A program made the position numbers and the translations under genes. Shown piece by piece: positions 28,256 to 39,913 of a DNA stretch of 40,190 nucleotides. Within the stretch, counting starts at the first letter, position 1; each line of letters opens with the position of its first letter. The notes beneath the pieces were generated by a model. The model was not told the origin of the DNA. It searched no databases and saw only the letters and a program-made list of their open reading frames with translations. The DNA comes from Melioribacter roseus (lineage in GTDB: Bacteria > Bacteroidota > Ignavibacteria > Ignavibacteriales > Melioribacteraceae): NCBI GenBank assembly GCA_020722005.1, contig DYLP01000023.1:1-40190 (forward strand). Direction: 5' to 3'.

Positions 28256-29179
28256 TTGGACAGCATAAGTAGATTCCTCCCCGTATTTGAAGCTCTATTC
28301 GTTACTTTTCTATGGTCTACATCATACATTATAATTAAGTGGGGACTGGAAGATATTTCACCTTTATTTTTTGCGGGACTGAGATATTCTCTGGCATTCA
28401 TAATTTTTCTTCCGTTCATTTTAAGAAAAAATCAAATCAACGGCTTAAAGCAATTAACCATTAAAGATTTTATGAAGTTGATTCTTTTAGGATTTGTATT
28501 CTACTTCGTAACGCAGGGAACACAATTTATTGGACTTTCTTTACTATCGTCGGTTGCTGTAAGTTTACTGTTGAACTTTACACCTCTGCTCGTACTTGCA
28601 ATGGGCATAATATTTTTAAATGAAAAACCGACTAAAAAACAGATTGCGGGAATAGCGATATTTCTTGCCGGTACTTCGATTTATTTTCTTCCGGTGGATT
28701 TCACCGGCGCACAGCTCGCAGGATTGGTAGTGATGATAGTGGGAGTTGCTGCAAATGCTTTGTCGGCGGTTCTCGGAAGGAACTTAAATCGCAGCTGTAA
28801 ACTCGATCCATTGATAGTTACATTTGTCAGTATGGGCTTCGGTTCGTTTCTACTTCTCATTACAGCAAATATTTTCGAAGAATTTCCTGTAATTAGTCTC
28901 AAAAACTGGATTTATATTTTATGGCTCGCAGGAATCAATACTGCACTTGCATTTACACTCTGGAACAAAACATTGCAAGTGCTAACTGCAGTAGAATCGA
29001 GCATCATAAACAATACGATGTTAATTCAAATTGCCATACTGTCGTTTATATTTCTAAATGAAAATTTGAGTGCAAAAGAAATTGTCGGACTGGGAATAGC
29101 TGTCTTTGGAGCTGTTTTGGTACAGAAGAGAGGAGAAAAAAGAAAGGCTGTCCTTGAAAACAGAGAGGACAGCCATTGA
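28256..29179 (+). CDS. EamA-family (DMT superfamily) transporter
   Basis: A 307-residue protein with ten predicted membrane segments in two EamA repeats (about 10-140 and 152-292). Landmarks are LWSTSYIIIKWGL near the start and the LNEKPTKKQIAGIAIFLAG and LNENLSAKEIVGLGIAVFGA stretches that end each repeat. Members export or import amino acids, nucleotide sugars or other metabolites; the substrate cannot be read from the sequence. The start is TTG 28256: an in-frame TGA at 28250 rules out anything upstream, and AGGA at 28242-28245 is a fair ribosome site. The last codons double as the hairpin of the serC terminator on the other strand. The gene stops 5 bp from the serC stop. Confidence 0.9.
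   Translation: MDSISRFLPVFEALFVTFLWSTSYIIIKWGLEDISPLFFAGLRYSLAFIIFLPFILRKNQINGLKQLTIKDFMKLILLGFVFYFVTQGTQFIGLSLLSSVAVSLLLNFTPLLVLAMGIIFLNEKPTKKQIAGIAIFLAGTSIYFLPVDFTGAQLAGLVVMIVGVAANALSAVLGRNLNRSCKLDPLIVTFVSMGFGSFLLLITANIFEEFPVISLKNWIYILWLAGINTALAFTLWNKTLQVLTAVESSIINNTMLIQIAILSFIFLNENLSAKEIVGLGIAVFGAVLVQKRGEKRKAVLENREDSH
29131..29174 (-). terminator. Intrinsic terminator of serC-DUF1015, inside the 3' end of the EamA gene
   Basis: A 9-bp perfect stem (29146-29154 with 29166-29174; GGCTGTCCT/AGGACAGCC) with an 11-nt loop is followed on the minus strand by TTTCTTTTTT (complement of 29136-29145). It lies just after the serC stop at 29185. It falls inside the last codons of the convergent transporter gene, so the transporter's C-terminal residues are partly set by the terminator. 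Confidence 0.8.
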
Positions 29180-29184
29180 TAGCA

Positions 29185-30270
29185 TTAATTCTTCTTCTTG
29201 AAATCTTCCATGAATTGGACAAGGTCTTCAACGCCTTTTTTGGGGAATGCATTGTAGATAGATGCTCTAATGCCGCCGACGCTACGATGTCCTTTCAATC
29301 CCTCAAAACCTTTCGTTCTTGCTTCTTCGATAAATTTCTTTTCGAGTTCTTCACTTGCTAGACGGAAAGTTACATTCATCAAAGATCTATCTTCTTTTAC
29401 AACTGTACCTTTATAATATCCATCACTTAAGTCAATTGCATCATATAAAATTTGTGCTTTTTCCTTGTTGCGTTTATACATTTCATCCAATCCTCCCATA
29501 TTCAATAACCACTTAAATACTAGCCCAGCTACATAAACTCCGAAAGTAGGAGGCGTATTGTAGAGCGAATTATTTTCTGCATGTACCCGGTAATTCAGAT
29601 AAGTGTGTAAATCGTCTGATGATCTTTCCAAAAGATCCTTCCGAATTATTACAACTACGACTCCTGAAGGTCCTATATTTTTTTGTGCTCCTGCATAGAT
29701 TAGTCCGTATTTGTTTACGTCAATTTTTTTGTGAAGGATATCTGAGGAAGCGTCGCATACAAGCGGAACACCGTTGGTCTCAGGTTCTGTTTTCCATTGA
29801 GTACCATAGATAGTATTATTCGATGTAAAATGGACATAAGATGCATCCGGGTCGAGTTTTAATTCGGATTGTTTCGGTAGTCTGTTAAAATTATCGCTCT
29901 CGGTACTTGCAGCAATATTTACCGTACCGACTCTTTTAGCTTCTTTCATAGCTTTCTTAGCCCACGAACCTGTAATAATATAGTCAGCTTTGTTTTTCGG
30001 GGGCATCAAATTCAGCGGCACCATCGAAAAGTGTAGCGTGGCTCCGCCTTGAAGGAACAAGACAGCGTAGTTATCGTTAATATCAAGTAATTTTCTCAAA
30101 TCGGCTTCGGCTTCTTTAATTACCTGGTCAAAAATTTTACCACGGTGACTCATTTCCATTATACTCATACCGCTGCCTTTATAAGAATAGAGTTCCTTCT
30201 GAGCTTCGAGTAAAACTTCTTCCGGTAATACGGCAGGACCTGCATTGAAGTTATAAATTCTCTTTTCCAT
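29185..30270 (-). CDS. serC: Phosphoserine aminotransferase
   Basis: PLP enzyme converting 3-phosphohydroxypyruvate and glutamate to phosphoserine in serine synthesis, and the matching step in pyridoxal phosphate synthesis. It has 361 residues, the family norm. The N-terminus YNFNAGPAVLP is the classic SerC opening. The Schiff-base lysine is Lys197 in GAQKNIGPSG, and the HRSVGGIRASIYNA stretch near the C-terminus binds the phosphate group. The ATG at 30270 has a strong AAGGAGT site. It lies 25 bp after the DUF1015 gene on the same strand and is the last gene before the terminator. Glutamate made by GltBD would be its amino donor. Confidence 0.97.
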   Translation of the reverse strand: MEKRIYNFNAGPAVLPEEVLLEAQKELYSYKGSGMSIMEMSHRGKIFDQVIKEAEADLRKLLDINDNYAVLFLQGGATLHFSMVPLNLMPPKNKADYIITGSWAKKAMKEAKRVGTVNIAASTESDNFNRLPKQSELKLDPDASYVHFTSNNTIYGTQWKTEPETNGVPLVCDASSDILHKKIDVNKYGLIYAGAQKNIGPSGVVVVIIRKDLLERSSDDLHTYLNYRVHAENNSLYNTPPTFGVYVAGLVFKWLLNMGGLDEMYKRNKEKAQILYDAIDLSDGYYKGTVVKEDRSLMNVTFRLASEELEKKFIEEARTKGFEGLKGHRSVGGIRASIYNAFPKKGVEDLVQFMEDFKKKN

Positions 30271-30295
30271 ACTTTACTCCTTTATATTAATTTAG

Positions 30296-31540
30296 TTAGA
30301 AATAGTCACTAATAAGATGAACCAACAAACCGTCTCTTAGTTTTGGTTCGAACCAGGTCGATTTCGGAGGCATAATTTCGCCTGCCTCTGAAATATTGAT
30401 CAAATCTTCTATTGATACTGGATACAATGAAAATGCCACCTCTGCAGTGCCTGAATCGACCAGACGTACAAGTTCTTCCGTCCCCCTTATACCTCCAATA
30501 AAATCGATATTTGTATCTGTACGCGGGTCTTCAATACCCAGCACGGGATGCAATAAGTAATTTTGAAGGATGCTTACATCCAGATTATCACCTAATGTAT
30601 TACCTGGTTTTACATTTCCATTTGGTTTTAAGCTATACCATTTTTTCTCTATATACATGCAATAACTTCTATTTGCAGATGGGAGGGGATTGTTGGTTTC
30701 TTCGATGTCAAAATTATTTTTTAGTTTCTCCATGAATTCATTCTTAGACATATTTAATTTGTGAACGACTCTGTTGTATGGCAGGATTTTCAATTGTTCA
30801 GCTGGAAAGAGAACAGCCAGGAAAAAGTTGTATTCTTCATCACCTTTATGAGAAGGATTTTTTTCCATCATGTATTTACATGCTCTTACAGCGCTTGCAG
30901 CTCTGTGATGTCCATCAGCAATATAAAGCGAATCCACCTGTTTCATTGCTTCAACAATAACATCAACCAGATTATCGGGCACAATCCAGATCGTATGTTT
31001 CACGCCATCAACAGCTTTAAAATCATAAATGGGTCTTTCAGTTTGAATTATCTGGTTTACTTTATCATTTATCACGTCTACGCCTTTGTAGGTAAGAAAT
31101 ACAGGTCCTGTTTGAGCTTTTGTGGTAATTATATGATTCGTGCGGTCGTCTTCTTTAACTTTTCTCGTCTTTTCATGTTTTTTTATTAAATTGTTTTCAT
31201 ATTCTTCCACAGAAAAAGTGGCAGCCAGACCAATCTGGGCATTACTTTCCCTGATTAATCGATATACGTAAATATGAGGATTATTATCCTGCAATAGAGG
31301 AGCTTCGTTTTTAAGACGTTCAAGGTTGTCTTTTGCTCGAGCATAAACTTCACTTGAATAAACATCAATATCAGCCGGCATTTCAATTTCGGCGCGTGTA
31401 ACTCTTAAAAAACTCAATGGATTTCCTTTTGCAAGTTCGGCAGCTTCTTCCCTGCTTACAACGTCATACGGTAAACTTGCCACCAGATGAGCTACTTTTT
31501 CGTGCGGTCTTAAAGCCTTAAAAGGACGAATGAGAGCCAT
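30296..31540 (-). CDS. DUF1015-family protein, paired with serC
   Basis: A 414-residue soluble protein. The start MALIRPFKALRP, the KHEKTRKxKEDDR block (121-133) and the YIADGHHRAAS motif (207-217) are the conserved marks of DUF1015. The DGHHR motif resembles the nucleotide-handling motif of ParB/Srx-like serine kinases. With serC directly downstream, that makes a role in serine or phosphoserine metabolism a reasonable guess, but the function is not established here. The frame is open 27 codons further upstream through a hydrophobic, AT-rich stretch that does not belong to the family. The ATG at 31540, with GGGGAA in front, is preferred. Confidence 0.85.
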   Translation of the reverse strand: MALIRPFKALRPHEKVAHLVASLPYDVVSREEAAELAKGNPLSFLRVTRAEIEMPADIDVYSSEVYARAKDNLERLKNEAPLLQDNNPHIYVYRLIRESNAQIGLAATFSVEEYENNLIKKHEKTRKVKEDDRTNHIITTKAQTGPVFLTYKGVDVINDKVNQIIQTERPIYDFKAVDGVKHTIWIVPDNLVDVIVEAMKQVDSLYIADGHHRAASAVRACKYMMEKNPSHKGDEEYNFFLAVLFPAEQLKILPYNRVVHKLNMSKNEFMEKLKNNFDIEETNNPLPSANRSYCMYIEKKWYSLKPNGNVKPGNTLGDNLDVSILQNYLLHPVLGIEDPRTDTNIDFIGGIRGTEELVRLVDSGTAEVAFSLYPVSIEDLINISEAGEIMPPKSTWFEPKLRDGLLVHLISDYF

Positions 31541-32192
31541 AGTTTCCCCTACTTTATAAATCAAAAAAATTATAAAAAGAAAAATAGTATATAATAGTAT
31601 TATTTTAAAACTTAATGCCAACTAAACATATTATTATTCTGCACAATATTTGCATACATTTTTAAGTAGTTCACACGATTATTTCTCTTTTCATGATTCA
31701 GGAAGTACAGCAAGCAGTTAATATATCCTGCTTGCAGATTGAATATCTTCGGTTTCTTTTTCGTTGTGAGGATATAAAAAATTATCTCTTCATTTTTCTA
31801 CCTTTGTACTTGTCTAACTCATACAATTTTCTGTTCCAAACGACCTTCATTTTCCGCCGTATGCAAGAATTTTTTACAAATATCGTCACCCTTTTCGTTA
31901 ATCTGTCCATCAAATGCTTTGATTAATGCACAATGAACGCATGCTGTTCTTCCTTTTTTGAAATCTTTCTTTACCAGTGAAATGAAATTAAGCTTGAAGC
32001 TGTAAGTTGAACTCATTAAAAAAGTGTGCACGATTTTTGATGTATTTTTCGCTGCTTTCATTCAAAACCTTTATCAAGATAATGCACAAGATTTAAAGTA
32101 ATCTGTATTCTTTTTATTTTCTTTTATTCTAAATTTTCTTAACATTAAAGTGACGTTATTTGATTAAAGGCTACACGAGAAAGGGAAACCGA
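31541..32192. other. AT-rich intergenic region between the DUF1015 and DUF2203 genes
   Basis: About 650 bp with strong AT bias. It holds one possible small gene (31819-32061, minus) and an 8-bp inverted repeat, GCAAGCAG/CTGCTTGC (31710-31717 and 31728-31735), around a 10-nt loop. No T-tract follows the hairpin in either direction, so it is not a clear terminator. The A/T-rich stretch 31560-31610 probably contains the serC operon promoter. No RNA gene is recognised. Confidence 0.45.
31819..32061 (-). CDS. Small cysteine-containing hypothetical protein
   Basis: An 80-codon frame whose ATG has an AAAGG site 6 bases upstream and whose codon choice resembles the neighbours. The N-terminal half is basic (Lys-rich) and the C-terminal half acidic. 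Cys41-x-x-Cys44 and Cys62 could bind a metal or form a redox pair. I do not recognise the family, and it could be the remnant of a longer gene. The overlapping plus-strand frame at 31693-31926 looks non-coding. Moderate to low certainty. Confidence 0.42.
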   Translation of the reverse strand: MKAAKNTSKIVHTFLMSSTYSFKLNFISLVKKDFKKGRTACVHCALIKAFDGQINEKGDDICKKFLHTAENEGRLEQKIV

Positions 32193-33335: not shown

Positions 33336-36300
33336 TTAGCCGTTTTCACCGGCAAGTCGGGCAATCTGTAGAAGATAGAATTTCAGTTTATCCTGGTCTT
33401 TTGGGGAGAGAGCCTGTTCTTCAATTTTAATTATTCTTTCAACTTCTTTTAAAGCGCGAATAATATTAATCGGTACTTCGACCATTTCCTGCGAGATGGC
33501 GGCGAGATATTCAACGGCAGCAGAAAGAAATTGTTGCATATTGTCGTCAAAAGACGACTTTGTAAATTGAGGCACCGCTTTTATTTTTTTAGGCGAAAAG
33601 AGATATTCTTTGTATGAGGAACTCGACGATAGAGTGTAGAATGCAATAGCAAGTTCGACAAAACTGGCAACGCGTTGGTAAACCGGTTCTTCGAGCAAAT
33701 CCCAGATTTTCTGACGCCACATTCTGATTTCTTCAGGAATTTTCAAAAGGTATTGCATTTCCTTCAACCATTTATCGTCAACGTTTCCTTTAATGTCTTT
33801 CATTATCTCTTCGAGGTTCGTATTGAACAAATTCTTTTGCAGCAGTACAGCGACATCGGGTCTGAGCGTGGGTAATAAATCCGGAATGAAACAATTGCCT
33901 TCAAAGAATTCTGAAACTTCCAGCCCGTGTCTTCTTAAGAGTTCTTTCTGGAAACAGCTTAGATAATTCTGCATCGAGTCGATATCCTCACGCAATGCAA
34001 TCAATGCCGAATTGCCAGCAGGAAAAGCTTTTTCCATTTTGCTCAAATATTTAAGGTCGACGTCGTGATAAATTCTGAGTGTTTGAAGCATTTCATAAAC
34101 GGGAAGTTTAGGAAGAACCCGTTCAGATATCAAGTACATCGGTTCACCTTCGGTAAATTCGCGCTGCGAAAAGTTGTTGAGTGCCCGGAATAATCCTGTA
34201 GTCAATTGATTAATACCGAGGATGACGCTTTGCGATTGATTATGCGAAATGGCGCGTAATAGACTTCCGTATTTAGAGAATGGAATTGTACCGGCAATTT
34301 TTTCGAGTATTTTTTGTCCTGCACCTTCGCCAATGCCCTGTCCAGGACGCTCAGTGGGACGGTCGCGTAGCGGTGGTGTAGTCCTTCCAATAAAATATGA
34401 GATTAGATGAATACCAACAACGTCTTCATCTCTGCCGTACAAAATCTGGCGAAAATTTTCACGGTGCAAATTCAGGAATTCGTTGAAGATTTCGTCTTTC
34501 TTGCCGACAGTAAGTCTTTCAAGTTCCTGCAAGCCTCTCGTTTTAAATTGAAGTCTGGTTTCAGACAAAGGTTCGCCGGCTCTTTGAATTTCTTTTTCGT
34601 TGAATTCCTGAGCTTCTTTAATATGATAAAGAAGCTGTGCTCTTTGGAAAGTTGATATATATCTGAGTTTTTCGGAAATATTGCTCTGAAAAGTTCTCAG
34701 GTCGCCTCCTGCAAAAACACCCAGCAAAGGAGTGGTTGCATACTGGGTACTTTTTCGAGTCGATTCAGCCAGATACTTATTAAATCGGTTCTGCGATAAA
34801 TATGAATCGATGAACAATTCCTTGCCAGCAACTTCCGAATAATACCCGCCCTGACGTTGCATTGGCTCGCCGCTGCCCATTTTCATGCGCACTCGTCCAA
34901 TTAAATTATTCGCTGCCAGCCACGTCATTAATTCGTACTTCGCTTCCCTGTAAAGATTCATACCCATTGCCTGTCCAACCTGCTGACTTAAATCTGAACC
35001 TGCAACAAATATTTCTGTAATAATTTCATTAAAACGTTCTGCAGTATCCTGATTGATTCTTCTGCTCTGGAAGGAATATTCCCAAATTTTGTCGAGATAA
35101 TTTTTAATATTACTTACGGAGTCGAGGTCTTCGAACAAGGGTACCAGCCATACTGCGGGCAGACCAAGATCATTGTTTTCTCTTAAAATTTCTTCTCGCT
35201 TCGACCTCATTTTACGGTCAAGCGATATTAAAGCCTCAGGTTTTGTGGTCATGCTCACCTGCAAGGCCAGAACCATTCCAGGATTCCCGTACCTTGCGGC
35301 TATTTCATTAATTTCGTTTATGTTATGCACCGTCGTGTCGATGGCAAATTGATCCTGCGCTGTAATTAATTTTTGATGGATACGAGGCGTTACAACGAAC
35401 CTTCTCAATAAGTCCCTGTACATCATGACTTCAAGAAGTAACCGTTTATCCGAAAGGTTTTTAATTATTTCCGGAATATGACTGTGCAAAGTTTTTCGTA
35501 ATCTCTTGTTCAAATCGAAATAATATTCTAAAGTATTCCTTCTTCTTATTCTAAGTTCGAGCATTTTTCTTTCAAGACGGTCGTTATGGTGCCACAAACG
35601 CGTCAGCGGGTCCTGAGCAATATGAAGTTTCATACCGAGTTTTCTCAATTTGCTCGGTTGTAAATTAAATGGAAGTGTGCCGCGGTATCTTTTTTCGAGC
35701 TGATGCGTAAGTTGAGTAATCTGGTTTAAGAGAGCTGTAAACCGCTTGTTCCGTTGAGGGAGTTTTTCCAATTCTTTTATAAGATATTCATCAAGCTCAA
35801 GCGAATGATTATTTCCGATCAGCATTTCCAATATTCTTGCCTGACGCACAATATTCTCAATTAATACAAAAGCCACCAGACTGTGCCCCTGGCCCGAAGG
35901 TCGATTACTGCCGTCCCAATCGCCCCAGAAAGATAGAAATGTTTCGAACTGACAGTCGGAATAAAGGGAAATAAAATTCTCGGCTGATATTATCGTCTTC
36001 AAATCGAGTATCAATTCATGAGGTTCTTCGTTCGATATAATGGCAACGTTTAATCCCAGATATTCTTTAACAAGCTCCTCTTTCAATTTTTCCAGCTCAT
36101 TATTTGAGGGTATGATTCCTCTCAAAAGATTTTCGATTATGCGCTCGGCAATTATATCAGTTTTAATCGAATACATTTGAGTGGGATGAACAGTTCTGTC
36201 GAACATTCTGCTACGGAAAGCTTCCTTGCGCCTTTCGAGTGAATCTTTATAAAATTCGCGTTCCAGAATTGATTCGAGTTGTTTTTGATTGCCCGAAAGA

Positions 36301-38927
36301 ATATATCCAGCATATTCGTTTACATACGATTGAAGCTCTTCAAACTTGTTTTGATAGATGGACAACTTATAAGGTATAAATTCATCTAGAAATTTCTTTT
36401 TATTAAACGAATAGTCCCCTCCACCATTCATTCTATTGAGATAACCAGTAAAGATATGTTCAATGTTTTCGAGAATATGTTTTTCAAGTACTTTCCAGTA
36501 ATTCGAATAATCTACAAGAACAACTTTTTTCTTTAGATTAATTTGCTTTACTTTTAATTGACGCTTGTTATAGTTTGCAGATTCTTCGGCAATCATTCTA
36601 TTGAGATCGATTAGAACACGTCGTGTTTTCCTTGCAAGTACTTCGGCACCGTCCGAACCACCGAGCGTTAGTCTGAAAGATTTTCTTCCTGTTTCAAAAC
36701 CTTTTTCTGTACGTGCAAAAGTAGAAAGTGGAATCAACCCTATTCCCTGTCGTGCCAGTCCTGAAGCAAGCCAATCGAGCGACAAGCCAGCCGGCAGATT
36801 TTCAATAATCATTTGAGGATACATGCTTCCGACAGGTGGTTTTATTTTTATATTGAATCTGTTCCTTTCGGCAGGAAGGCTTTCGGCGGCTTCCTCCAAT
36901 GCTTTGCTTCTGTCGTAAAATATCCTGTTCCGTAATTTATGATATGCTCTGACGTCTTCAACTTTGTTACGATAAAGTAGATACGAAATGTAAATTGCAG
37001 AAACGTTATCACGAAAAGTATCAATTATACTTTGAAATTTATTTCGTAATTCGGGAAGTCTTATTTCGACAACCGATAGACGCGCCCCTGCAAACGAATC
37101 GGTCTTCGACATCGAATGAATTGTAATTAAATACTTTCCTTTTTCACTCGTAAGATAACCTTCTTCAACTAGTTCTATGCATAACTGACGCAGAGTATCG
37201 ACTTTTTCCAGACCAACAAATGGTTTAACATTTTGATACGACAAATCGTCGACGACCTTAATTTCCCTTTCGAGCAGCCACTTGAGCAGTTCTTTCAAAT
37301 CGTTTCTATCGAAAATTTGTCCCGTAGCATTATGGGGGTTGTTTAAAACCACCGCACCATATTTTTTCCAGCCGGCATCTTTCGACAATTTATTCTGAAC
37401 TGCATCTATAATTGCTTTAATATCAATTTGAAAATCATCTGTTAATGGAACGGTACATACTTCGGGAAAACAATGTTCATAAGTCCAGCTCAGATCGAGT
37501 ATAATAGCTTCTCTGATGCCACAGTGGAATCCGAGTATACTGAGCGCCGTTCTTGACGAGCCGCTTACAACCAGTGAATCTTCAAGTTTATACTCCGGAT
37601 GATGATTAATAAATGCGCTGAGGTAAGACGTCTTAAGGTCTTTTATCCAATCGTCATTGTTGAAATTATCGACCATTTCATCGTACAACTCTACTGCGTT
37701 GTACGAAGCAAATCTGTCGTAACTAATTTTCGAAGAAAATCTTTTATGTTTACCGGTATGCGAACTGAATTCTTCTATGATCCTGTTAATCTTCTTTTCG
37801 ACCTCCCTTCCCTTCAATTCGACAATATTACCGATAATTTTTTCGGCGGTTCTGGCAAAACCTGAAAGTGGTTCCAGTCCAAGCCTAACAGATTCGCCTT
37901 CAATTTCAGCATCAACCTTGATGTCAAGCGGTTCCTTTTCTTCCTCGATACCCTTCTTCAGCAGATAATTCAACAGAGTAATTTCCGTCGAAGAGGGTGT
38001 TCCCTTTAGTTTGAAATGTACATTTTCCAGAACTTTTATAAATTCGTGGTTGCCCGCAATGAATACCAGCGAAAAGCCTTTCAGCCTGTTTGAAAAAGCC
38101 GATGGAGTTATAAAACGAAGGACTCTGTTCATCATTTTGGCTTCACGCGCCAGCGAAAGGTGATTCGGTGCATTATTTATTTCAACAAAAAAGAGAGGAT
38201 ATTCTAAGCTAAGATTCCTCAAATGTCTTCTTGTCACTTCATTTGTAATTTTGCCCAGTATAAGAAATTTCGGTGCATTTTCGTTATTCAATATACTATT
38301 CAATTGAGGCAGTAAAGCCTCTTCTACATTTCCAAGATTATGAAATCGTACACCTTCATATTTTTTTAAATGTTCAGGTATTTCACAGTCGAACAGAAGA
38401 ATATCTGCCGGTAGATTGACCATAAATTCGGAAACGGAATGAAAAAAAACGCGTAATGTCTCGGGAATACCGTTTGAAGCCAGTATTATTTCCCTCTTAC
38501 CCGATTTAGCACCTGTATCGTAAGAAAGAGGTTCTTGTTGTTTATGTGAAAGCCAATCATTAAAAAATTCAATTATAAATTCGGGTTTAGATTTAATGTA
38601 TCCACCGCGCGGCGAATATGGTGCTGCCCTTTTTATTAATTCGGCTATCAATTCAACTTTTGGAGCGTCTTCATTTGACAAATCTAATTCACGGCAGAAA
38701 GCTTGAGGGTTATCTATCGATAAGCTATCGTCGAGCAGATCAATACCCATTGCCAATCGCATAAAAATAGAGTAAAGCCGTTCATCCTGAACTGGATTTC
38801 CGATATGGAAATTTACTCTTTCGTGAACTGGTACCGAAGAAGCGGCAGTTGATTCGCTAATTTCCGAAATTTTTGCCGCTTTAATTGGCTTCAGTTCAAA
38901 AAGTAACAGCGGGTCTTTTGAAATCAT
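33336..38927 (-). CDS. Giant fusion: pseudo-aminotransferase + class I/II aminotransferase + PEP carboxylase-like protein
   Basis: A 1863-residue protein in three parts. Part 1 (about 35-390) follows an aminotransferase fold (FHIGNP, YSPRGGY, ASNGIPETL), but the PLP lysine site reads SAFSN (Asn280), and the Asp/Tyr pair is Glu249/Asn252, so it should not bind PLP normally. Part 2 (about 400-790) is a class I/II aminotransferase with NNPHNATG (529-536), Asp561-x-x-Tyr564, Lys608 in HSMSK, Arg616 and Arg752 in SFRLTLG. Part 3 (about 800-1863) matches PEP carboxylase in order: TVHPTQ (His914), GDWDG (1002-1006), VSMTTKPEAL, VPLFEDLDS (Glu1266), GSDLSQQVG (Asp1312), the loop MGSGEPMQRQGG (1350-1361) and a terminal LAGENG. 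The Lys after SDS is Gln, and the HGRGGSxGRGG loop is altered, so carboxylase activity is uncertain. It could make aspartate from PEP or be regulatory. It follows the SPFH gene by 8 bp. ATG 38927 lacks a clear ribosome site. Confidence 0.8.
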   Translation of the reverse strand: MISKDPLLLFELKPIKAAKISEISESTAASSVPVHERVNFHIGNPVQDERLYSIFMRLAMGIDLLDDSLSIDNPQAFCRELDLSNEDAPKVELIAELIKRAAPYSPRGGYIKSKPEFIIEFFNDWLSHKQQEPLSYDTGAKSGKREIILASNGIPETLRVFFHSVSEFMVNLPADILLFDCEIPEHLKKYEGVRFHNLGNVEEALLPQLNSILNNENAPKFLILGKITNEVTRRHLRNLSLEYPLFFVEINNAPNHLSLAREAKMMNRVLRFITPSAFSNRLKGFSLVFIAGNHEFIKVLENVHFKLKGTPSSTEITLLNYLLKKGIEEEKEPLDIKVDAEIEGESVRLGLEPLSGFARTAEKIIGNIVELKGREVEKKINRIIEEFSSHTGKHKRFSSKISYDRFASYNAVELYDEMVDNFNNDDWIKDLKTSYLSAFINHHPEYKLEDSLVVSGSSRTALSILGFHCGIREAIILDLSWTYEHCFPEVCTVPLTDDFQIDIKAIIDAVQNKLSKDAGWKKYGAVVLNNPHNATGQIFDRNDLKELLKWLLEREIKVVDDLSYQNVKPFVGLEKVDTLRQLCIELVEEGYLTSEKGKYLITIHSMSKTDSFAGARLSVVEIRLPELRNKFQSIIDTFRDNVSAIYISYLLYRNKVEDVRAYHKLRNRIFYDRSKALEEAAESLPAERNRFNIKIKPPVGSMYPQMIIENLPAGLSLDWLASGLARQGIGLIPLSTFARTEKGFETGRKSFRLTLGGSDGAEVLARKTRRVLIDLNRMIAEESANYNKRQLKVKQINLKKKVVLVDYSNYWKVLEKHILENIEHIFTGYLNRMNGGGDYSFNKKKFLDEFIPYKLSIYQNKFEELQSYVNEYAGYILSGNQKQLESILEREFYKDSLERRKEAFRSRMFDRTVHPTQMYSIKTDIIAERIIENLLRGIIPSNNELEKLKEELVKEYLGLNVAIISNEEPHELILDLKTIISAENFISLYSDCQFETFLSFWGDWDGSNRPSGQGHSLVAFVLIENIVRQARILEMLIGNNHSLELDEYLIKELEKLPQRNKRFTALLNQITQLTHQLEKRYRGTLPFNLQPSKLRKLGMKLHIAQDPLTRLWHHNDRLERKMLELRIRRRNTLEYYFDLNKRLRKTLHSHIPEIIKNLSDKRLLLEVMMYRDLLRRFVVTPRIHQKLITAQDQFAIDTTVHNINEINEIAARYGNPGMVLALQVSMTTKPEALISLDRKMRSKREEILRENNDLGLPAVWLVPLFEDLDSVSNIKNYLDKIWEYSFQSRRINQDTAERFNEIITEIFVAGSDLSQQVGQAMGMNLYREAKYELMTWLAANNLIGRVRMKMGSGEPMQRQGGYYSEVAGKELFIDSYLSQNRFNKYLAESTRKSTQYATTPLLGVFAGGDLRTFQSNISEKLRYISTFQRAQLLYHIKEAQEFNEKEIQRAGEPLSETRLQFKTRGLQELERLTVGKKDEIFNEFLNLHRENFRQILYGRDEDVVGIHLISYFIGRTTPPLRDRPTERPGQGIGEGAGQKILEKIAGTIPFSKYGSLLRAISHNQSQSVILGINQLTTGLFRALNNFSQREFTEGEPMYLISERVLPKLPVYEMLQTLRIYHDVDLKYLSKMEKAFPAGNSALIALREDIDSMQNYLSCFQKELLRRHGLEVSEFFEGNCFIPDLLPTLRPDVAVLLQKNLFNTNLEEIMKDIKGNVDDKWLKEMQYLLKIPEEIRMWRQKIWDLLEEPVYQRVASFVELAIAFYTLSSSSSYKEYLFSPKKIKAVPQFTKSSFDDNMQQFLSAAVEYLAAISQEMVEVPINIIRALKEVERIIKIEEQALSPKDQDKLKFYLLQIARLAGENG

Positions 38928-38935
38928 TATTATAG

Positions 38936-39913
38936 CTATTCGGTTTTTCTTTCACTGTTTTTCTTTCTACTTTCCGTTAAATTATGGAGCAAGTTCTGGA
39001 ATAGAACGGAAAGCTCGGAGCCTTGTGGTAAATCGGCAGATGACAGAGATACAACCGTACGAGCATTTTTAAGTGTTTGACTTGCTTCTGCAAGACGAGC
39101 AGCTTGAGGAGTAAGAAGCAACAGTTCGGGATTATTCTTGAGTAATTCCAGCTCTTTCGACTCGAATTCGAGTTGCATTTGTTTTCTTTTTAGTTCTTCT
39201 TGAACACGTTTTTCGGCTATTGCAGCTTCTTTCTCGATCTCCTTGTTTTTCAGTTCATATTTTTTCATTTCGAGTTGATTTTCCAACAAAGCAATTTCTT
39301 CTTCAGCTTTGAATTTAGCTTTAGCAGCAGCTATACGAGCTTTCTGATTTAACTCTTCGGTTTGTTCTAAAATACGTGCAGATTCCTGCTGCTTAATGGC
39401 GTCGGCTATTTTCGTATCAAGGATTTCAATCAATTGAATAAAAATCGATACGATTTCCAGACCAAATTTATCTTTACTTATATCCGTATTTTTATTCAGA
39501 AATTGATAAATCTTCTCTCCGCTCAATTCCTCTATTTCATACTTTTCGGTTAATTCTCTCACCCAGCTTTCAATCAATATTTCGAGTTCCTTAGTAGCTT
39601 TCTCTACAGCTCTGGTATTCCATCCGCCGATTTTGATCAATTTATGAATATTCTCGAACGATAGAACTACACTGAAGGTCATTCTAATTTTTATATCAAG
39701 ATTTCCTTTAGCCGTCGAATCAATGTTTAATTGTACCGAATGAATTGTTCGAGGAAGCACCAGACACAAATGACGGGGATAAAATCTACCTTTTTTCAGT
39801 ATGATTTTTCCATCCGATTCATACAAAACTAACTGGTCGGGTTTCCGCAATCGGTATTCATAAAGCAGAAACAGGATTATCACTAATATTATTATTATTA
39901 TTGCTGGCCACAT
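38936..39913 (-). CDS. SPFH/band 7 (flotillin-like) membrane-anchored protein
   Basis: A 325-residue protein with one N-terminal membrane helix (about 3-18, nearly all Ile/Leu), an SPFH/band 7-like domain (about 24-175), a long charged coiled coil (about 175-265, rich in Glu, Lys and Ala) and a C-terminal segment with LTPQAARLAEASQTLKNA and SSADLPQGSEL, typical of this family. Such proteins form ring or lattice oligomers on the membrane and gather partner proteins in microdomains. It should face the cytoplasm with its coiled coil. ATG 39913 has a GGGAG site 7 bases upstream. It is the first gene of a transcript with the giant fusion (8 bp apart), so a physical partnership is the natural guess. 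Confidence 0.85.
   Translation of the reverse strand: MWPAIIIIILVIILFLLYEYRLRKPDQLVLYESDGKIILKKGRFYPRHLCLVLPRTIHSVQLNIDSTAKGNLDIKIRMTFSVVLSFENIHKLIKIGGWNTRAVEKATKELEILIESWVRELTEKYEIEELSGEKIYQFLNKNTDISKDKFGLEIVSIFIQLIEILDTKIADAIKQQESARILEQTEELNQKARIAAAKAKFKAEEEIALLENQLEMKKYELKNKEIEKEAAIAEKRVQEELKRKQMQLEFESKELELLKNNPELLLLTPQAARLAEASQTLKNARTVVSLSSADLPQGSELSVLFQNLLHNLTESRKKNSERKTE

Follow-up and report, generated by a model that had tools for sequence, protein, structure and literature searches.

A degenerate aminotransferase large domain in a long fusion protein of Melioribacter roseus as a candidate built-in partner of its live aminotransferase

Introduction

Why does a single bacterial protein carry what appears to be a dead aminotransferase copy ahead of a live one? 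The question is raised by a 40,190-nucleotide stretch of Melioribacter roseus DNA (contig DYLP01000023.1 of assembly GCA_020722005.1, positions 1 to 40,190; the whole stretch is called the window here), in which one coding frame at 33339..38927 encodes a fusion protein of 1863 residues. The frame ends at a stop codon at 33336-33338 (open reading frame 33336-38927), and all features of the fusion given below lie, like the frame itself, on the minus strand. Fold-type-I pyridoxal 5'-phosphate (PLP) enzymes normally require two copies per active site. An earlier note, made from the sequence alone, had proposed that an inactive copy at residues about 33-376 might serve as a built-in partner subunit or as a ligand sensor. 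Our estimate is a probability of roughly two in three that the dead copy serves the live aminotransferase as a built-in dimer partner.

Fold of the N-terminal region

Aminotran_1_2, matched at residues 451-758 (E = 3.6e-13), was the sole Pfam domain of the fusion. The live half, residues 411-790 (36558..37697), comprises the large domain and the C-terminal part of the small domain, and scored 49.9 bits against the PF00155 cut-off of 19.7. The gene is single-copy in its own 2.66 Mb genome and consists of one frame without stops. A total of 92 homologues were aligned, and 88 unique sequences were left when four exact duplicates had been dropped. The active site of class I/II aminotransferases comprises the PLP lysine, an Asn, an Asp, a Tyr and two Arg. 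K608 (37104..37106), the PLP lysine in the motif HSxSKTDxxAGARL, was conserved in 88/88 homologues together with N533, D561, Y564 and R616, and R752 was found in all 87 sequences with letters at that place.

We then consider the region ahead of the live half. When residues 8-330 were folded alone with a 72-row alignment, the model had a mean predicted local distance difference test score (pLDDT) of 91.2 and a predicted template modelling score (pTM) of 0.88. Foldseek found 494 matches to this model in the PDB at E <= 0.001, the best of which was the aspartate aminotransferase (AspAT) of T. thermophilus (4.2e-10), and the best VIA match had a Z of 18.9 over 207 aligned residues with a root-mean-square deviation of 2.9. 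All of the 50 Foldseek and 50 VIA matches listed were class I aminotransferases or closely related PLP enzymes of fold type I, C-S lyases among them. Residues 89-330 (82-323 of the model; 37938..38663) aligned to residues 47-287 of the T. thermophilus AspAT (1bjw; VIA Z 16.5, 218 aligned), and both programs placed the large-domain fold of class I/II aminotransferases there. Most VIA matches began at residue ~86 or beyond, leaving out an additional helical insertion at residues 49-88 (38664..38783; predicted helices 49-60 and 74-80) at the junction of the preceding arm and the dead large domain. Neither the PLP lysine nor the Asp that binds the pyridine nitrogen in class I/II aminotransferases is kept in residues 89-330, in a register set by structure order and a weak hhalign alignment. 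The N-terminal region is thus, in its predicted fold, a degenerate aminotransferase of which only the large domain (~89-330) is present. The earlier note's central claim of a degenerate aminotransferase fold was confirmed by this model, and no unrelated fold appeared among the matches listed.

Sequence searches, however, gave a different picture and weigh against this assignment. Aminotran_1_2 matched the N-terminal halves of 0/72 homologues at E <= 1, the profile of these halves matched no aminotransferase among the PDB sequences at E <= 1, and their consensus matched no aminotransferase family in Pfam. Weak profile-profile matches in the expected register were obtained between dead residues 117-250 and live residues 430-562 (E 0.039), and a further weak match joined dead residues 206-324 to ordinary aminotransferases (E 0.23). 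At sequence level, the aminotransferase nature of the dead half was not proven by Pfam, PDB-sequence or profile-profile searches.

A model of both halves (residues 1-800; pLDDT 85.3, pTM 0.85, 13-row alignment), which was confident overall, clarified the boundaries. Single aminotransferase chains spanned it from residues 4-7 to ~780, as observed for LysN (2egy_B, 377/394, Z 31.4) and for 1bjw (359/382), where the ranges give the first and last residue only. The dead half alone, in contrast, aligned only from residue 47 of AspAT. Furthermore, the N-terminal arm was better ordered when the live half was present: block pLDDT was 57-72 for residues 18-47 in its absence (72-row alignment) and 71-89 for residues 11-50 in its presence (13-row alignment), the depths of the two alignments being different. 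For these two reasons we assigned the arm to the live half. Residues ~1-48 (38784..38927), which hold the arm and the first small-domain segment, probably belong to the live enzyme, and the dead large domain would be inserted between this arm and the live body, as far as can be judged from alignment ranges and pLDDT. Within the arm motif N39-F-H-I-G-N-P45, residues F40, H41, I42, G43 and P45 were present in 87/87 rows with letters. Residues 331-410 (37698..37937) form a weakly conserved and partly disordered spacer with a single long helix at 355-390, and pLDDT in the 1-800 model fell below 50 at 331-359 and 387-401. The span of residues ~33-376 originally proposed for the dead copy does contain it, but mixes the arm, the dead large domain and the spacer.

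Residue conservation in the two halves

The loss of the PLP lysine had been read from Asn280 (38088..38090) in the earlier note. This position was variable among the 88 homologues (Pro 55, Lys 9, Ser 9, Asn 4, Glu 4, Arg 2, Gln 2, Ala 2, Thr 1). Lys is found there in nine of 88, which is the very observation that the note had named as speaking against an inactive copy. All nine homologues with Lys280 retain E249 and N251, and for this reason we did not read them as live. Residue 280 is a poor marker of the dead copy. The second proposal, that the Asp and Tyr holding PLP are replaced by Glu249 and Asn252, was borne out for E249 (38181..38183), which is invariant and stands at the place of the PLP-binding Asp of live enzymes in a register weakly supported by hhalign; residue 252 was Asp in 51, Asn in 34 and another residue in three.

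Residues Y104, G108, G109, F305, K308, G309, P311, E249 and N251 of the dead half were conserved in 88/88. Y104 (38616..38618) lies in a P-Y-x-P-R-G-G loop, which by its motif we take to be the match to Tyr70* of aspartate aminotransferase, so that Y104 is a putative counterpart of the partner Tyr. K308 (38004..38006), in F-x-L-K-G-T-P, is proposed as the second residue directed at the live site. The live half, on the other hand, had no conserved Tyr at the place of the Tyr loop in the 88 homologues; in a profile alignment, the QYSPTRG loop of BNA3 lay opposite a variable NIDSEE stretch of it. The complementary conservation of the PLP residues in the live half and of Y104 and K308-G309 in the dead half supports the idea of a built-in partner, and in this indirect manner the partner role suggested in the earlier note was upheld; no positive evidence was obtained for the sensor role.

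The dead half appears to be maintained. In a comparison of the window with one relative (L002), the ratio of nonsynonymous to synonymous substitution rates (dN/dS) was 0.062 for the dead half and 0.056 for the live half, and residues 326-400 had the highest value (0.165) of five segments compared. On this single pair of sequences, the dead half is not decaying and is under purifying selection similar to that on the live half, with weaker selection on the spacer. A decayed pseudogene or an assembly artefact was ruled out by the open frame, conservation across several phyla and low dN/dS.

The most divergent relative is of particular use. A 652-residue protein (L024, positions 1507-3462 on contig C202 of genome G054) has the dead and live halves and is without the C-terminal module. 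It keeps the equivalents of Y104, G108, G109, F305, K308 and G309, and has lost those of E249, N251, N255, S258, R261 and E262. It keeps the partner-facing residues and loses those of the pocket, which favours, in this single sequence, a partner role over a pocket role. The 652-residue frame was not found among 296 genomes drawn from the phylum, and the contig could be foreign. Judged by eye, the gene beside it encodes a prephenate-dehydrogenase-like protein with an ACT-like tail.

These data bear directly on the ligand sensor, according to which the dead domain binds a metabolite in its old PLP pocket and modulates either the live half or the C-terminal module. In favour of this idea, the large family hardly varies at E249, N251, N255, S258, R261, E262, E230, R233, R234 and R237. 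The first six of these would not obviously be needed by a pure scaffold, and their conservation also counts against a dead copy that is nothing but a partner. The 652-residue relative nevertheless dispenses with these six while keeping the partner-facing residues, no ligand family was matched, and position 280 drifts freely; we consider a sensor unlikely.

The C-terminal module

Residues 800-1863 (33339..36530), about 1060 residues in all, are probably a distant relative of phosphoenolpyruvate carboxylase (PEPC) with altered catalytic residues, as suggested by sub-threshold matches to PF00311 and PF14010. Profiles were made from 69 full-length homologues, and three alignments had 56, 44 and 72 rows after identity or size limits. 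When 44 members were compared with Pfam, PEPcase_2 matched five (best 0.0012) and PEPcase matched three (best 0.00068), all below the cut-off. PEPcase and PEPcase_2 were also the top two Pfam matches of the module consensus (0.011 and 0.041). A PF00311 search of genomes recovered the fusion unprompted in G015 at 4.9e-4, again below the cut-off; the genome match in L006 had 18.4 bits against a cut-off of 22.4. The likeness to PEPC follows a probable common register through HPT, GDxDG, PLFE, SD, GxGxxxxRxGG, LRAI and a C-terminal NG. For a home-made PEPC profile, the best of the forward matches lay in a single register. Furthermore, five of the ten most conserved PEPC windows fell in one 40-residue offset band, a result reached in 0/2000 block shuffles, although this statistic was chosen after the first window test had been seen.

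Several results weigh against this assignment. The offset-band test became weaker with more windows (16/2000 shuffles at 20 windows and 126/2000 at 30), and the first window test, which had no offset band, detected no collinearity overall (tau 0.02; the longest run was 7, where shuffles averaged 6.8). The hhalign comparison of the module with PEPC was not significant (probability 0.6%), and the reverse profile search of canonical PEPCs was no better than a reversed-sequence control. The module's own 44-row profile retrieved no canonical PEPC at E <= 1 from 58 genomes and was unmatched among PDB sequences, where the profile of another alignment matched a designed miniprotein only. No member tested passed a Pfam cut-off, and no single PEPC match of a member was better than 7e-4. 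These failures would be explained if the module were unrelated to PEPC and the motif likeness were due to chance or convergence. We nonetheless regard this explanation as rather improbable in view of the top-ranking consensus matches, the unprompted recovery by PF00311, the shared register of the home-made profile and the clustering of five windows in one band.

H914 (83/83), E1266 (76/76) and D1312 (75/75) were invariant in sequences with letters at these positions, their positional match to PEPC being taken from weak alignments. In the register given by hhalign, position 1315 was Gln in 75/75, position 1350 was Met, Leu, Phe or Ile, and position 1352 was Ser in 68, Cys in 4, Asn in 2 and Ala in 2. 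In the E. coli enzyme, we take His138 to be catalytic, Glu506 and Asp543 to be metal ligands, and Lys546, His579 and Arg581 to be further catalytic residues. If the register is right, the His138-, Glu506- and Asp543-like residues are probably kept and the Lys546-, His579- and Arg581-like residues lost (Gln, Met/Leu and Ser). With the latter three lost, ordinary PEPC chemistry is doubtful. A canonical PEPC over the cut-off was found in 3 (G001, G025 and G056) of the 12 relatives with the fusion; none was matched in the window's own genome (G000), and one of the three (G001) is a congener.

Distribution and neighbouring genes

A species-level scan covered 84,980 genomes, one per species, and the best 80 of 118 matching stretches were examined. 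By record title, these 80 came from Ignavibacteriota (27), Chloroflexota (26), Bacteroidota (16), Acidobacteriota (8) and Calditrichota (1), with none named for 2; several relatives were metagenome-assembled genomes, and their taxon labels are possibly wrong. The same architecture recurred in relatives from Ignavibacteria, Anaerolineae, Acidobacteriota and Calditrichia, and the frame spanned residues ~1-10 to 1863 where the contig permitted. At L045, L050, L051, L071 and L099 it was split into two overlapping pieces, which may reflect errors in the sequencing of draft genomes. Among 296 genomes from the same phylum as the window, 12 had the dead domain, in every case within a long frame of 1250-1922 residues.

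Eight bases upstream of the fusion, a gene at 38936..39913 (minus strand) encodes a 325-residue membrane protein resembling SPFH/Band 7 proteins. Such a gene stood immediately upstream, always on the same strand, in 71/78 loci and was missing from seven; loci with fewer than 600 bases upstream were excluded from this count. Band_7 matched 20 of 33 members of this family at E <= 0.01 (best 2.3e-9), the member in the window reaching 18.4 bits against a cut-off of 23.6, and a hydrophobic N-terminus was observed in 61 of 64. The conserved neighbour suggests that the two proteins may form a membrane-tethered complex. As a clue to the pathway, no other neighbour was conserved: apart from the SPFH-like gene, no cluster occurred in more than 8 of 81 loci. 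In the window itself, a class V aminotransferase gene (SerC-like by eye), a DUF1015 protein and a 307-residue frame lie at 28256-31621. The genome has 13 Aminotran_1_2 matches over the cut-off, and the fusion, with 12 others besides it, is hence not its sole aminotransferase.

The idea that the dead domain is mainly a docking scaffold, linking the aminotransferase with either the C-terminal module or the SPFH protein while an ordinary homodimer of live halves forms the site, would fit the conserved operon and the fact that none of those phylum genomes has the dead domain apart from the remainder of the fusion, but we consider it improbable, since the 652-residue relative has both halves without the C-terminal module and the live half is without the partner Tyr loop that such a homodimer would need.

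Two further candidates were rejected. A mobile or phage-borne gene received no support, with residues 1-800 unmatched in a plasmid collection and the whole protein unmatched in a phage collection. As to anti-phage defence, neither the fusion nor the SPFH-like protein had a PADLOC match at E <= 0.1.

Discussion

We propose that one chain holds the pieces of a single active site, namely the arm (~1-48), the dead large domain (~89-330), the live large domain (~411-655) and the small-domain end (~656-790). The dead large domain would pack on the live one in the manner of the second subunit of an ordinary dimer. It would supply Tyr104 and Lys308 to the PLP site of the live half, its own PLP site having been lost, and each chain would then have a single active site, half the number of a normal dimer. 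The live site, however, could also be formed by a homodimer of whole chains, which tells against a partner supplied within the chain. The PEPC-like module probably acts on, or senses, a C3 or C4 acid related to the substrate or product of the aminotransferase, to which it may be coupled.

If the dead copy is indeed a built-in partner, the fusion would be an apparently clean example, beyond glycine decarboxylase, of a dead and a live copy dividing the work between them. Sequence searches did not see the dead half, and comparable cases have possibly been overlooked in other proteins. The C-terminal module, for its part, may represent an unrecognised branch of the PEPC superfamily with different chemistry. 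The fusion and the membrane protein together make up a two-gene module that is widespread in environmental bacteria and has no function assigned in the libraries searched. In the literature searched, no paper on an aminotransferase-PEPC fusion was found.

The fold of both halves and the PLP residues of the live half resemble those of LysN, T. thermophilus AspAT and prephenate aminotransferase. These enzymes are ordinary symmetric dimers, whereas the fusion would carry its partner large domain, which no longer has a site of its own, within the one chain. The C-terminal module differs from PEPC in that it stays under every family cut-off and is fused to an aminotransferase, in addition to the replacements at the K546, H579 and R581 places.

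The nearest parallel is the glycine decarboxylase P-protein (GLDC/GcvP). As described in PMC7259800, a dead N-terminal fold-type-I copy with Gln at the Lys position is fused to a live C-terminal copy, and the halves are similar across the large regions 113-472 and 531-906. A dead fold-type-I copy ahead of a live one in a single chain is present here as well. Compared with that description, the difference is that the dead copy of the fusion aligns as a large domain only and appears inserted after the live enzyme's arm. GDC-P was absent among the Pfam matches of the fusion at E <= 0.1. In serine palmitoyltransferase, the homologous partner LCB1 is without the PLP lysine and catalytic residues and, according to PMC3794620, is proposed to form one active site together with LCB2. 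The two subunits are separate chains in the core enzyme described there, belong to another PLP family and have no C-terminal module, whereas the fusion is one frame. The protein is neither a glycine decarboxylase nor a serine palmitoyltransferase. The principle of a dead copy that serves a live one is known from these two enzymes; what would be new is a partner consisting of a large domain only and inserted in a class I aminotransferase, along with the probable PEPC relative fused to it and the conserved SPFH-like gene alongside.

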